From: Candidatus Alistipes avicola
Lineage (GTDB): Bacteria > Bacteroidota > Bacteroidia > Bacteroidales > Rikenellaceae
Length of the DNA: 64,000 nucleotides
Direction of reading: 5' to 3'
Assembly: GCA_019118565.1 (NCBI GenBank)
Contig: DWYR01000016.1
Coordinates: forward strand, 1-64,000
Position 1 is the stretch's first letter; every line of letters begins with the position of its first letter. Under the pieces are notes generated by a model. It saw only the letters and a program-made list of their open reading frames with translations. It was not told the origin of the DNA and made no database searches. The position numbers and the translations under genes were made by a program. Below, one piece after another: positions 21,587 to 27,849 of the stretch.

Positions 21587-22735
21587 TCATTTTAGGCGGA
21601 TTGTCCAATAATCCTGTCCGATTTTCGTGAAGGCAATATATCCCTCGTTGCCGGGGTGAATGCCCAGTCGGGAGGCAATTTCGGCGGTGTTTAACGGGAA
21701 ATCCTGTTTGAGCAGGGTTATCTTTCGGCCTTTCAGGTCGTGTCGCAGTTTTTTGGGATTGTACGGTTCGATACGATCGATCTCCATCCAGCGGCCCATC
21801 GGGGCTTCGCTCTTCTCACGGGCGAAGCCATAGCCGTTCACACTCCACAGGTCTGCTCTACCCTCCAGATAGTGTGGCGTCAGGCGTGCCTTTTGCAGCG
21901 AAACATCCGGCAGAAAGAGCCAATGATAGGCCCCCGGATCAAACGCAGGAGTTTGTATTTTGCCGATCTGCTCCGGGCGTGCGGAGAATTCGCCGCGTCC
22001 GATGGCGACGGCCGTTAAGAGGGGGCCGCCGTTGTCGGCATAGATCATTACCTCCTTGCATTCGTCGTGGAGGGAGACCACCTCGACGCGGGCCTTCTCG
22101 AAAAGGCGGAAGGCCTCCTGTACGTCGAACAGCGGAGAGTTTTTCAGGCAGAGCCGATCCGTTCGGCGGAAGATCTCGCTGCGCAGGGCGAGGATGTCGG
22201 GGGAACAATCTTCCAGGCGAACCAGTTTACGGCCTTCGGTACTCCGGCGGTCCGGATCGGCGTAGATCCAGTCGAACCGCTCCTGCACCAGGGGTAGGAA
22301 GTGTTCGGCTGAATCGTGGATGACCTGAATATTCGTAACACCGAGACGCCGGAAGTTCTCGGCGGCGATGGCAGCCAGCACTTCGTTGCGTTCGAGCGTG
22401 ATGACCCGCTCGAAATGTTGTGCCAGGTAGAGGGCATCGACCCCAAGGCCGCAGGTGAGGTCGAGTACGGACTCTCCCCGGCAGCTCTTCCGCGCGGCAC
22501 ACGCCTCGCTCGAGGCCTGTTCGAAAGCCAGAGGAGGAAGAATACAGCGCGCTTCGTAATAGCGGGGCAGTTTGGTGCGTGCCCGCTGAAGGTATTTTAC
22601 CTGTGTAGCAACTAAGGCTGCGTGTTCGATCCGCTTGTCCAGGGCAATCCGGGTCGGATCGCGCTCGATCTGTTGGTCGATCGTTTGGCGCAGCCGATCG
22701 CTGCAGAGCAGTTCGTATTGTTCGAGTGTGATCAT
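21587..22735 (-). CDS. SAM-dependent methyltransferase with THUMP-like C-terminal region
   Basis: 'VLDLTCGLGVDALYLAQHFERVITLERN', 'DWIYADPDRRS'. Confidence 0.82.
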   Translation of the reverse strand: MITLEQYELLCSDRLRQTIDQQIERDPTRIALDKRIEHAALVATQVKYLQRARTKLPRYYEARCILPPLAFEQASSEACAARKSCRGESVLDLTCGLGVDALYLAQHFERVITLERNEVLAAIAAENFRRLGVTNIQVIHDSAEHFLPLVQERFDWIYADPDRRSTEGRKLVRLEDCSPDILALRSEIFRRTDRLCLKNSPLFDVQEAFRLFEKARVEVVSLHDECKEVMIYADNGGPLLTAVAIGRGEFSARPEQIGKIQTPAFDPGAYHWLFLPDVSLQKARLTPHYLEGRADLWSVNGYGFAREKSEAPMGRWMEIDRIEPYNPKKLRHDLKGRKITLLKQDFPLNTAEIASRLGIHPGNEGYIAFTKIGQDYWTIRLK

Positions 22736-24252
22736 TCTGATGGCAAATGTACCGATTTTTCCCGTTCAATACTCCAGAGAAACAATGTCGCCAATATGAA
22801 AAGGGCATAGGCAAAACCGCATTGCAGGCCGGAGAGACGAAGTTCGATGGTTGCGTGTGGAAGGTTGGCTCCGTATTCGATCAGCAGATTTTGTAGACGG
22901 GCTAACCATCCGATAACGGGTGAAAAAACGGGTTGAAGAAAAGATAGGGGCAGGAGCATCCAGATAGTGCAGGCTCCGACCAGCAGGTTGGCGATGAGAA
23001 CGACGATTGGATTGAGCAAAAGACCGATGATTGAGACCTGTCCGAAAGTATAGGAGATAAGCGGGGCCGTAACGACAGCGGCTGTAATACCGATCGAAAG
23101 GGTGGCACTCAGGGCGTTTAAGACTCTTACCCGACTTCTCAGCAATCGGGTAAGCGGAATGCCCCAGGCAATGATTCCGCCGACGGCCAGAAAGGAGAGT
23201 TGAAAACTGATGTCGAACAGGTAATCAGTACGGAATAGCAGCATGACGAAGGCCGTACCACAGAGTGTGTTCATGCTGATGTATTCCGAGGAGGTGGCGA
23301 GGGCGAATTGCAGGATTGAGAACATCAGGGTTGCGCGTATGACACTTGGAGGGAATCCGGTTGTTGCGGCGTAGAGCCAGATGAGCAGAATGACGAGGAT
23401 GTTGCGTGCGATGTGTCCCCGTCGTAGCAACGGCATCCACCACAACACAAGGTTCGTAAGCATGAAGACGATCCCGACGTGCAGACCCGATACGGCAAGC
23501 AGGTGCGACGTTCCGCTGCGGGAGTAGGAGTCCCGCAGCGTTGCCGAGATCGTGCGTCGGTCGCCGGCTGTCATGGCATTGACGATGGCCTGTTCGTCGG
23601 GAGACAGTTGCAGACGGTTGAGGCGCATGACGGCTCCTTCATGAAGCCCTGTAGAGAGTCGTCGCAGGGAGATCCCATGACGGGTGGTATCAAGGTTTAG
23701 TACCTGGTATTTGTTCAGATAGAGTGTCCCGACATATCCACGTCTTGTCATGAGCCGTCCATATCCGCCGCTTCGTTCCGTAAAAGGGTATATTACTCCG
23801 CAAATGATCGCATTGTCTCCCGGAGAGAGGGCGATCGTAGAATCGCATCGGATGAGCAGATTCCCTCCGGAGGGGAGCCACTTGTTGCTATCGGCAAGAC
23901 GTTCTGCCCGGATGTGTGCTCCGACCGAACTGCGACGGCCTTGCTCCGAGAGAGTCTCCCGGATAGTAACTTCGTATTCACCCCAAATATCGGTCTGCGT
24001 CTGCGGCTCGTCTCCCCAAATGGTAACAGTCATCCCGAAGAGCAGCGTCGCTGCCAGCGTGGCATATCCGGCTGTACGTTCCTCGGTAAGCAGTGCGGCG
24101 ATCCCGCAAAGAAGGAATCCACCTCCCGTAAACCACAGCGGTAATACGTAGTGGTCAGCCAGCAGAATTCCTGCAATCAGGGCCGGTAAGGCTCTGACCA
24201 TCGGCATTCGCATCAGACGTTCCCGCAGAATTGTCGGGTTGATTCGTAACAT
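22732..24252 (-). CDS. comEC: ComEC/Rec2-family competence protein
   Basis: 'SGTSHLLAVSGLHVGIVFMLTNLVLWW', 'ATTGFPPSVIRATLMFSILQFA'; start at MLRINPTIL (24252), not the 24552 extension. Confidence 0.88.
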   Translation of the reverse strand: MLRINPTILRERLMRMPMVRALPALIAGILLADHYVLPLWFTGGGFLLCGIAALLTEERTAGYATLAATLLFGMTVTIWGDEPQTQTDIWGEYEVTIRETLSEQGRRSSVGAHIRAERLADSNKWLPSGGNLLIRCDSTIALSPGDNAIICGVIYPFTERSGGYGRLMTRRGYVGTLYLNKYQVLNLDTTRHGISLRRLSTGLHEGAVMRLNRLQLSPDEQAIVNAMTAGDRRTISATLRDSYSRSGTSHLLAVSGLHVGIVFMLTNLVLWWMPLLRRGHIARNILVILLIWLYAATTGFPPSVIRATLMFSILQFALATSSEYISMNTLCGTAFVMLLFRTDYLFDISFQLSFLAVGGIIAWGIPLTRLLRSRVRVLNALSATLSIGITAAVVTAPLISYTFGQVSIIGLLLNPIVVLIANLLVGACTIWMLLPLSFLQPVFSPVIGWLARLQNLLIEYGANLPHATIELRLSGLQCGFAYALFILATLFLWSIEREKSVHLPSE

Positions 24253-24319: not shown

Positions 24320-24360
24320 ATAAATAAAAACAGTCTTCTGTCCGGTTGCAGAAGACTGTT
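24320..24360 (-). terminator. Rho-independent terminator downstream of nuclease gene
   Basis: ACAGTCTTCTG-tccggttg-CAGAAGACTGT; T-rich tail on the - strand (AATAAATAAAAA on +). Confidence 0.75.
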
Positions 24361-24386: not shown

Positions 24387-25511
24387 TCAGAAGGAGGAGA
24401 AGACACTCCAACTGGAGTTTTGCTCTGCGGAGGCTTGAATTTCCTCCGGCAGGTTCGCAAAGAAATTGTAACCGGTCAACTGTTCGATCTCGGCGACCGA
24501 TTTGGTGTAGCTTTGGTAGCTGGTCCCCGAATACTCCTTGTGGGGCAACCAAACACCGACAGTCGAAGCCGATGTGATCTCTCCGGTACTTGCATCACGC
24601 TTGACCTTGAGCAGCACTTTGTAGTAGTAATTGGGTACAGGACACTGCTTGCTGTCGTTTTTCGGTTGGATGTACGTAACCGATTCGTTGCCGGCAACGG
24701 TTTGCAGGATTGCTCCCGTTACGACATAGACCGTATCGGTCGAACTGGTCAGCGATCGGACAGCCCCCTCGAGCGAATTCCAGATACCTCCATTGAATCC
24801 GTTTTGCAACTGAGGGGTTGAGTTGGTCGCATAAAAAGTTTGCGTACAAGCCGTTCCGTATGGATCTCGGTTGCGATCGGCATTCGAGATCTGGTGCCCG
24901 CGTGAGTAGTAGTTGCTGCCGACGCTCACACCGTATGAGCCGTTCCAGATATTGATCTGGTCCGAGGTCGATATGCCGGGCGTAGCCTGCCACGGATCGT
25001 TCGGACGTCCCGATCCCAGATCGCCTGCCGTGAGCGGATAGGCAACCCAGTAGGCCGTGTAGGTCGACGTATCGTAGTACATCGTATAGTTTCGTGCCGA
25101 CTTCTCGTCGTAGAAACTGCGGGTCAGCATGTTGCTCCCTTCGCCTTCGATCTTGGCCGGCAGTTCGAACCAGGCCGTGTGATCGGTCAGCGGGTTGGGG
25201 TTGAGCGTTGTAAAAGTAGTTTCGGCGCTTTGCGGCGAGGTGCCATTGGTCGCCGTAACTATACCATAGAGCGTGTAGGTCGTATTGCCTTGCAGTGAAG
25301 AGAGGGTTGCCGTTGCCCGATTCCCCGTTACAGTGGCAACGACACTTTTCGTGTCGCTGCCATTGTCGGAGAAATAGACGAACTGCACCCCGGCTACGTA
25401 GGCCTCATTGGTCAAGTTGCACGTAACCTCTGCACTGGAGGCGGTGATGTTGCTCACGCTTGGCGTTTCGATTCCCGGGGTAGGGTCTGGGGTCGGAACT
25501 CCGCCCCCTCC
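24387..25511 (-). CDS. Fn3-like domain plus DNA/RNA non-specific endonuclease (NUC1-type); in frame with the upstream lipoprotein ORF across one TGA
   Basis: 'YYSRGHQISNADRNRDPYGTACTQTFYATNSTPQLQNGFNGGIWNSLEGAVR'; linker GGGGVPTPDPTPGIETPSV directly follows the TGA (25512-25514) in the same frame. Confidence 0.82.
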   Translation of the reverse strand, partial: GGGGVPTPDPTPGIETPSVSNITASSAEVTCNLTNEAYVAGVQFVYFSDNGSDTKSVVATVTGNRATATLSSLQGNTTYTLYGIVTATNGTSPQSAETTFTTLNPNPLTDHTAWFELPAKIEGEGSNMLTRSFYDEKSARNYTMYYDTSTYTAYWVAYPLTAGDLGSGRPNDPWQATPGISTSDQINIWNGSYGVSVGSNYYSRGHQISNADRNRDPYGTACTQTFYATNSTPQLQNGFNGGIWNSLEGAVRSLTSSTDTVYVVTGAILQTVAGNESVTYIQPKNDSKQCPVPNYYYKVLLKVKRDASTGEITSASTVGVWLPHKEYSGTSYQSYTKSVAEIEQLTGYNFFANLPEEIQASAEQNSSWSVFSSF

Positions 25512-27665
25512 TCATTGCTTTTTGAATAGACGGAAGGTGCCGTTCTGGTTCGTGTCGCTACCGGTATATGTTCTCCAGTTGTTGTTTTTATAACCAGCTA
25601 AATATCTGGATGTAATCGTATTGAGAATTTCCCATCCCTGACTGCTGGTAGTCTTGGTAAATGTCCATACATGGGTATTGTAACCCGAGCTGATTCGGAG
25701 TCCGGAGTTACTGTCGGTTGTTCCCATAAAGATCGCTGGGTCGGCGGTCGATGATACGGTGAATCCGGAGCCGCTGGCCGTAAGCGTCCAGGTCATGTCG
25801 GCGGTAGGATTGGTGATCGTATTGCCCGACAGAATGACCGATGCGGGGAGTGTCGTCGAGACAGGCTGCGCTCCGGCTGCATCTGTGTTCGGGAGATAAT
25901 AGGGAGTGCCGCTGAACTCTCCGATCAGAATGTACTCTCCGGCCGTAACCTCTTCGGTTGTCATAACCTCGACATAGCCGCCCTCGATCGGAGTACTTGA
26001 AAGTTGTGAGACGGTAATGGTCTGAGCCGGAGCAGTCGCGTAGGTGAAGGTAACGGTTGCCGAACGGAAGTCTCCGTTGTTTGCATCTACCGTGAAGGTC
26101 ACCTGCCCGTCCGTTGTGGTGTCGAAATCGTGGATCCATGTTGCGGGGGCGTCGCTCGAGGTTGCCGTTGCTGCGATCGTCTCGCCCTCGACGGGGTTCT
26201 CGATCGAGTAGGTAACGGTTATCTGCTCGCCGGCCGGATCTGCCGATACGGAGGTCGGGCTGGTGAGCGTCAGAACGGGAGGCAGACCTGCGGTATGACC
26301 TGCAACTACCTGGAAGTAGTCGATATAACCGCGTTTTCCGGTAACTTTTACATCGACCTTCGCCTTGTTGCCTTGCGGATCGAATTGGAAGCTGTAGTAA
26401 GCGTACTCGGAAGTCAGGGCCTGCTCCTGAACAGCTTCGCCTGCGGTGATCTGGAGCGAAGAGACGTCCGATCCATACGTTTTGGCGTGAACGATTACCG
26501 TAAAAGGCTGCGACAGGTCGAGGTCGGCCGTCGTGAAGTAGCCGCGGTTCTTGCTCGATCCGAATTTCAAGGCCGGAGCCTCGGGATAGGTGTATTCCGT
26601 TGCGGTGTAAAGTTCCTCCCCACTGGTCCCTTTGGGATAGTCGGTCAGGCGCAGTGCTGTGGTCGAGGTGGTGCTAATCCAAGAGAAGTCGTCCGTGAAA
26701 GGCAGGGCCATACCGGTCTCTGCAGCAGTGATATGCTCGTCCGCAATGCCGATGCGAAGCGTGGTGATCTTTCCCGGGAGAATCTCGATGTCCTGGCCCA
26801 GCGTAATCACCTTGTTGATCGTATAGCCTTCGGTCGAAGCGGCAACGATCAACTGCGTTCCCGTAGGCAACGTCTGCGGATATACGTTCAGGTAAGTGGC
26901 GTTCGTCCCGTCGATGGCGTATTGCGTGGCGCTGGTGTAGTGTGCTACGACACTCCTGGAGTGGTTGTAATAGGGAGCTGTCATTGCCCCGTTTACAAAG
27001 TCGAGAACGACACGTCCAGCCAGATGGAGCGTTTGTGACTCATCAGTGGCAACCGAGAGGGTGTTAACATGCTGTCCGGTGATGGCATCGCCCGTCGTGT
27101 TGTCCAGCAGGACGACTTTCAGGACACCGCTGACGCGTTTGAACTGCATGTTCTCGATCGAGGTAGTCGTCGAGGTAACCTGTACCGGTTTGCTGACCAA
27201 CAGGTCGGCCGTACCGTCGAACGATGTGGCGGTCGGATTCTGGTTGATCGGCAGGTCTACCAGAGCCCCGAATACTTTATTGCCTGTACCGAGGCCGTTG
27301 TTCGAATAAGGATAATAGGCATAGAGGGTCGCACCTTCTGCCGGGATGGTTATCGAACCGGAGAAGGTTGTCGTCTGTGTAGACGACTCATTGTCGTTGG
27401 TGAAACTTTGGTGGTTTGCGGAAGCCTCTGCACTTGCCGTAGTGGTTACACCGATCTGGTCGTTGGCGCTCCACATGGGAGTTGCACCCTGCATCTCGGT
27501 ACGGGTTCCTTGCTCGTCGATGCCCGATACCTCGGGATTGCCGGCCTGGATGGTCAGTTGGACAGGTTTCAGTGTGTTGTCCTCCTCTACACTGTCTTTG
27601 GTGCAAGCGGTGAATGCCATTGCAGCTGCTGCAATGAGCATCCAAGATTTAATCAAGGTTTTCAT
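25512..27665 (-). CDS. Fimbrillin-like multidomain surface lipoprotein, ending at TGA 25512-25514
   Basis: Lipoprotein signal 'MKTLIKSWMLIAAAAMAFTACTKDS', Mfa-like region 'YAYYPYSNN...', BACON-like region 'YATAPAQTITVSQLSS', C-terminal 'GTFRLFKKQ'; start 27665 preferred over 27740. Confidence 0.82.
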   Translation of the reverse strand: MKTLIKSWMLIAAAAMAFTACTKDSVEEDNTLKPVQLTIQAGNPEVSGIDEQGTRTEMQGATPMWSANDQIGVTTTASAEASANHQSFTNDNESSTQTTTFSGSITIPAEGATLYAYYPYSNNGLGTGNKVFGALVDLPINQNPTATSFDGTADLLVSKPVQVTSTTTSIENMQFKRVSGVLKVVLLDNTTGDAITGQHVNTLSVATDESQTLHLAGRVVLDFVNGAMTAPYYNHSRSVVAHYTSATQYAIDGTNATYLNVYPQTLPTGTQLIVAASTEGYTINKVITLGQDIEILPGKITTLRIGIADEHITAAETGMALPFTDDFSWISTTSTTALRLTDYPKGTSGEELYTATEYTYPEAPALKFGSSKNRGYFTTADLDLSQPFTVIVHAKTYGSDVSSLQITAGEAVQEQALTSEYAYYSFQFDPQGNKAKVDVKVTGKRGYIDYFQVVAGHTAGLPPVLTLTSPTSVSADPAGEQITVTYSIENPVEGETIAATATSSDAPATWIHDFDTTTDGQVTFTVDANNGDFRSATVTFTYATAPAQTITVSQLSSTPIEGGYVEVMTTEEVTAGEYILIGEFSGTPYYLPNTDAAGAQPVSTTLPASVILSGNTITNPTADMTWTLTASGSGFTVSSTADPAIFMGTTDSNSGLRISSGYNTHVWTFTKTTSSQGWEILNTITSRYLAGYKNNNWRTYTGSDTNQNGTFRLFKKQ

Positions 27666-27681: not shown

Positions 27682-27849
27682 TTACAAATCGTAATCGTTT
27701 CCATAATCCAGGTCGCCGCCGGCTGCACCGGGATCACCATATCCCTGGCTGTCGACGAAGCCTTTTTCTACCGAAATCTCCAAGACTTCGATGCGCGGAG
27801 AAGAGTAAGCGTCTTTTCTTCCGGCAAATGAATCGTAATGTCTTTCCAT
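27682..27849 (-). CDS. 55-aa small Gly/Asp-rich protein upstream of fimbrillin-like lipoprotein
   Basis: MERHYDSFAGRKDAYSSPRIEVLEISVEKGFVDSQGYGDPGAAGGDLDYGNDYDL*; below the ORF-track cutoff. Confidence 0.7.
   Translation of the reverse strand: MERHYDSFAGRKDAYSSPRIEVLEISVEKGFVDSQGYGDPGAAGGDLDYGNDYDL

Follow-up and report, generated by a model that had tools for sequence, protein, structure and literature searches.

A conserved in-frame UGA between a fimbrillin-like lipoprotein and a nuclease module in Alistipes and its relatives: a candidate for programmed readthrough in bacteria

Programmed readthrough of stop codons is well documented in viruses and animals. Among the closest described systems, the coat gene of phage Qbeta ends in a UGA that is read as tryptophan about once in 15 times to give the A1 protein (PMC8067240), viral Gag-Pol and plant-virus genes make an enzyme by readthrough of an in-frame stop (PMC5009743), and bacterial selenoprotein genes decode UGA with the help of a hairpin (PMC8211752). 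A review of recoding states that in-frame UGA readthrough is not known from any bacterial release factor gene (PMC5009743). Leaving aside selenocysteine and pyrrolysine, our own literature search, limited and not a proof, turned up no readthrough for a conserved gene on a bacterial chromosome.

The locus described here lies within a stretch of 64,000 nucleotides from Candidatus Alistipes avicola (assembly GCA_019118565.1, contig DWYR01000016.1, positions 1 to 64,000), referred to as the window. On the minus strand, an ORF for a fimbrillin-like surface lipoprotein of 717 residues runs from 27665 to 25515, ends with ...FRLFKKQ, and is closed by an in-frame TGA at 25514-25512 (25512..27665 including the stop). 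The same frame proceeds without a gap as GGGGVPTPDPTPGIETPS... for 374 codons to the terminal stop of a nuclease module, TGA at 24389-24387. An earlier note on this DNA had pointed out the single in-frame TGA and the gapless frame, estimated a fusion of about 1,100 residues, and saw neither a signal peptide nor a convincing ATG in the continuation. All of these observations were borne out, the predicted full fusion across the TGA comprising ~1,092 residues. We propose, with a probability of roughly 85%, that this is a gene with programmed UGA readthrough, which would produce a short lipoprotein as the major product and a lipoprotein-nuclease as the minor one.

The arrangement resembles the Qbeta coat/A1 pair in that an in-frame UGA follows an abundant surface or structural protein and a long C-terminal extension is carried (here, by prediction) on a minority of copies. 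It differs in being a bacterial chromosomal lipoprotein gene with an enzyme as the extension and a conserved hairpin after the stop. With viral Gag-Pol and plant-virus readthrough it shares the in-frame stop, the downstream RNA structure, and the predicted supply of an enzyme as a minority fusion. However, the host and its ribosome are bacterial, the codon is UGA instead of UAG, the structure is a simple hairpin rather than a pseudoknot, and the system is known here from its sequence.

We collected relatives by searching 101 genomes with the post-stop protein and widened the set with a covariance model and a scan of named GTDB genomes. A single stop codon occupies the same place in 46 distinct junctions (45 TGA and one TAG), which are related sequences, not independent samples; most members are metagenome-assembled genomes (MAGs) named Alistipes, Tidjanibacter, Rikenellaceae or Bacteroidales. 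Further cases beyond this count are L160, L182, L202, and L203. The common layout consists of a variable surface-protein domain, the stop, a Gly/Ser/Thr-rich linker, the sequence "PPATDPTPG", and the nuclease. The upstream frame is kept in every member, and the distances from the stop to the nuclease differ by multiples of three.

Because the first covariance model contained the TGA, we built two further models without the stop codon. All 25 matches in subgroup A were preceded by TGA, and subgroup B gave nine matches leading into a nuclease, eight of them preceded by TGA and one by TAG. The comparison of TGA with sense codons suggested in the earlier note thus revealed no sense codon at the junction among the hairpin-bearing members. 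The sole TAG junction belongs to a Tidjanibacter sp. RGIG9496 MAG (L201, the same as L066), in which the hairpin and the linker are kept. These ORFs end in a variety of terminal stops (22 TAA, 13 TAG, and 10 TGA), so that, away from the junction, one stop codon is freely replaced by another. TGA serving as the terminal stop in 10 of 45 ORFs, including the one in the window, also led us to reject a reassignment of UGA similar to genetic codes 4 and 25. The base following the internal stop is A in 17, T in 14, G in 10, and C in 5 junctions, which shows no bias towards contexts known to be leaky.

An ancestral fusion gene struck by a recent nonsense mutation, or misread through a sequencing or assembly error, as considered in the earlier note, would show just one TGA interrupting its reading frame, and the uninterrupted homologues sought there do exist in some species as lipoprotein-nuclease fusions (L005 and L007). 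Yet 46 distinct modules, each from a separate genome, have this stop, and purifying selection past it is strong, which leaves this explanation with next to no probability; one shared assembly error at a single codon across genomes is not credible. The other option of that note, programmed or leaky readthrough with two forms, is strongly favoured.

Residues 138-356 of the continuation (24444..25100, minus strand) match Endonuclease_NS (PF01223; NUC1, beta-beta-alpha-metal) with an E-value of 5.9e-37 and 127.9 bits against a curated cutoff of 23. The RGH...N...E motif is intact in the window, and these catalytic residues are kept in the alignment of relatives. Both sequence and predicted fold relate the module to Anabaena NucA and the Serratia nuclease. 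The domain ahead of it (25212..25460) has a weak Fn3 sequence match (E 0.0068, under its cutoff) but appears as an Fn3-like domain in the structure model, upholding the earlier assignment of an Fn3-like domain and a non-specific endonuclease; it is missing from many relatives. The post-stop nuclease showed dN/dS values of 0.06-0.27 in 11 pairs; among uninterrupted relatives, three pairs could be measured and gave 0.08-0.13. Strong purifying selection acts on the module past the stop. From its domain family, we would expect it to digest extracellular DNA or RNA.

No signal peptide was detected after the stop in the window continuation. The first ATG, at codon 128, lies inside the module and is preceded by a GTG at codon 19. 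This GTG, and the fact that reinitiation after stops is common in bacteria (PMC6728339), speak for two separate genes, with the nuclease starting by itself after the stop at GTG, TTG or a rare start codon. However, the relatives have no start position in common after the stop, several lack any ATG before the nuclease domain, and the conserved linker precedes any possible start. Independent initiation would also yield a signal-less, cytoplasmic non-specific nuclease and leave the frame identity with the upstream ORF unexplained. We regard it as very unlikely.

A nuclease with its own signal peptide, which the earlier note named as a sign against an ancestral fusion, was met only in relatives without the stop. 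By our reading of the N-termini, nearly all of the 43 junction-less relatives not cut by a contig end begin with a lipoprotein signal, a signal peptide or a membrane segment that belongs to them; the two exceptions, L102 and L121, have an ambiguous N-terminal signal when read from the first ATG. On the simplest reading, the stop-preceded nuclease would come about solely as the C-terminal continuation of an exported lipoprotein. It shares the domain, the catalytic motif, and the predicted fold with NucA/Serratia-type secreted nucleases (PF01223), but whereas these have a signal peptide of their own, it would be carried out as the readthrough tip on a fimbrillin-like lipoprotein.

The upstream ORF in the window begins with the lipoprotein (SPII) signal MKTLIKSWMLIAAAAMAFTAC (27603..27665), predicted from the sequence, whose Cys21 is invariant in an alignment of 25 relatives. 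An SPII signal starts 26 of the 27 upstream ORFs examined, and the remaining one is cut by a contig end. The upstream part has no Pfam match. The model of its N-terminal domain matches the Bacteroides fimbrillin/adhesin folds 4k4k and 3sy6 (Foldseek E 3e-9 to 1e-6, TMt 0.48-0.65), although confidence in the model of the entire upstream part is modest, with a mean pLDDT of 66. The description as fimbrillin-like, already given in the earlier note, thereby holds at the level of the predicted fold; a surface location for the lipoprotein and any nuclease attached to it is probable.

The upstream proteins have the leader and the N-terminal region in common and differ in their middle domains (BACON, Big, and Fn3-associated). 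In two pairs, L034 with L037 and L038 with L042, close nuclease modules stand behind different last domains before the stop. In these pairs, it seems that the lipoprotein has exchanged its middle part and retained the stop and the hairpin.

The Gly/Pro linker in the window, GGGGVPTPDPTPG (25473..25511, minus strand), is kept by the relatives as GxGGxxPPxxDPTPG, and its coding sequence contains the hairpin. In subgroup A, the RNA forms an interrupted stem of 17 bp beginning 5 nt after the stop. Across 20 sequences, 91.8% of cells were paired vs. 47-57% with slid partners, and 29 double-sided compensatory cells were observed vs. 9.1 in shuffles; one pair occurs as GC, CG, UA, AU, and UG. In subgroup B, a short hairpin unrelated to that of subgroup A (UCCGGCG gagg CGCCGGA) begins 6 nt after the stop, and its covariation depends on a single pair. 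The median folding z was -2.46 after the stop, -0.20 before it, and 0.02 in the linkers of uninterrupted relatives. Gly codons followed by Pro codons favour pairing of G-rich with C-rich stretches, and the hairpin could partly be a by-product; the loss of pairing upon sliding the partners counts against such a by-product of codon composition. In the window, the hairpin is short, with 7 bp and a bulge of one base (GGGGCGG AGUU CCG A CCCC, 25489..25507, minus strand); it folds, but not better than shuffles (z 0.37). This copy is weak, and we assign the element there by its position and its homology to the hairpin of the relatives. We propose that the hairpin would stimulate readthrough, judging from its covariation in subgroup A and, more weakly, in subgroup B.

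Hairpins after the terminal stops reached an even lower median z of -3.46, as expected for terminators. A hairpin after a stop is therefore not diagnostic by itself, and the case rests on covariation and the coding frame. The equal strength of these terminal hairpins, together with the shuffling of the middle domains among species, would suit another reading, in which the internal hairpin serves to terminate transcription or as a site of DNA recombination, with the nuclease as a silent cassette to be moved behind a start. We found no U-tract after the internal stem, whereas a terminator-like stem with a U-tract follows the nuclease in the window (24329..24360, minus strand). Models R1 and R2 gave one strong site per genome, hence no partner site for recombination, and neither process would need conservation of the stop identity and the frame. 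A terminator or recombination site is accordingly very unlikely. A search of an order-wide sample with R3 gave weak matches of at most 24.8 bits. No Rfam family matched the junction; weak sub-threshold matches fell outside it or on the opposite strand.

In T4 gene 60, too, a hairpin stands behind a stop, and ribosomes bypass a stretch of the message. Bypassing over the hairpin is suggested here by this likeness. However, we found no matched take-off and landing codons, and the codon before the stop varies among members. Changes in hairpin length stay in frame, and the hairpin encodes the conserved linker, which together make bypassing highly improbable.

The readthrough that we favour requires a tRNA for the UGA. 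The position of the UGA and the hairpin resembles that of a bacterial selenoprotein gene (PMC8211752), and selenocysteine insertion directed by a bacterial SECIS could in principle be involved. Searches of 10 genomes yielded no SelB above the cutoff, and the matches below it resemble ordinary translation GTPases; in 16 genomes, no tRNA-Sec exceeded the cutoff. Unlike in selenoproteins, the residue would lie within a Gly linker with no Cys counterpart, and one member has TAG. Barring a selenocysteine system of a new type, the probability of selenocysteine insertion is negligible.

We expect decoding by a near-cognate tRNA, most likely with tryptophan as the inserted residue. The tRNA-Trp(CCA) of genome G000 and its relatives has a U11-A24 pair in the D-stem, which is the pair gained by the E. 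coli Hirsh suppressor tRNA-Trp. Among 110 good genomes from the family, 94 contain the motif with A24, and most other Bacteroidales sampled have C11-G24. In four more MAGs with subgroup B junctions, tRNA-Trp has either U11-A24 or A11-U24; the gene was not found in five further MAGs looked at. Since junction-less members of the family have the same pair, U11-A24 is a lead and not evidence of specificity. The tRNA-Trp(CCA) gene at G000:C8:16012-16085 (L228) also has a G-U pair atop the anticodon stem. A tRNA-Trp with a shortened anticodon stem was reported in 2026 to read UGA in E. coli (PMC13092985), which by analogy supports tryptophan tRNA as a general kind of decoder.

Putting these elements together, most ribosomes would end at the UGA and release the fimbrillin-like surface lipoprotein. 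A minority, aided by the hairpin 5-6 nt downstream, would accept a near-cognate tRNA at the UGA (most likely tRNA-Trp) and proceed through the Gly/Pro linker into the non-specific nuclease. Without a start or an export signal of its own, the nuclease would have no way out of the cytoplasm other than at the C-terminal tip of the lipoprotein. A fixed or regulated fraction of ribosomes would then place nuclease-tipped copies among bare lipoproteins, where they might attack extracellular nucleic acid; the dosage may be low due to the cost or self-harm of a surface nuclease. We consider the odds about even for a more specific version, in which a hairpin-stimulated UGA-to-Trp system sets the ratio of bare to nuclease-tipped copies, uses the Hirsh-type 11-24 tRNA-Trp, and may respond to growth state or RF2 level.

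In the nuclease tree, the stop-preceded state is present in both deep clades and requires 10 changes, at least seven of which are forced by supported branches. Together with the shuffled middle domains, these changes indicate that the junction was gained, lost or exchanged several times; some species have an uninterrupted fusion, such as L005 or L007, where others have the junction. Such a pattern is as expected if the nuclease can be supplied either by a full-length fusion or by readthrough. A search of viral contigs gave only distant nuclease matches, and we dropped a phage origin.

As for the neighbourhood in the window, a small ORF of 55 residues, MERHYDSFAGRKDAYSSPRIEVLEISVEKGF... (27682..27849, minus strand), lies 16 nt upstream of the lipoprotein ATG, and several relatives are also preceded by similar small ORFs with acidic tails. 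A gene for a ComEC-like DNA uptake protein (22732-24252, minus strand) is located directly downstream of the nuclease. We abandoned a link to competence: comEC adjoins the gene in the window but is absent from the flanks of all 80 named relatives.

If the proposal is correct, this would be, to our knowledge, the first conserved cellular case of readthrough without selenocysteine in bacteria. The family holds a single cis element in dozens of natural variants, so the sequence rules of bacterial UGA readthrough are directly testable. Standard annotation would report a lipoprotein ending at the UGA and a start-less nuclease fragment, and such products may be missed or labelled as pseudogenes. For the bacteria themselves, the locus suggests that common gut commensals carry an extracellular nuclease of controlled dosage.
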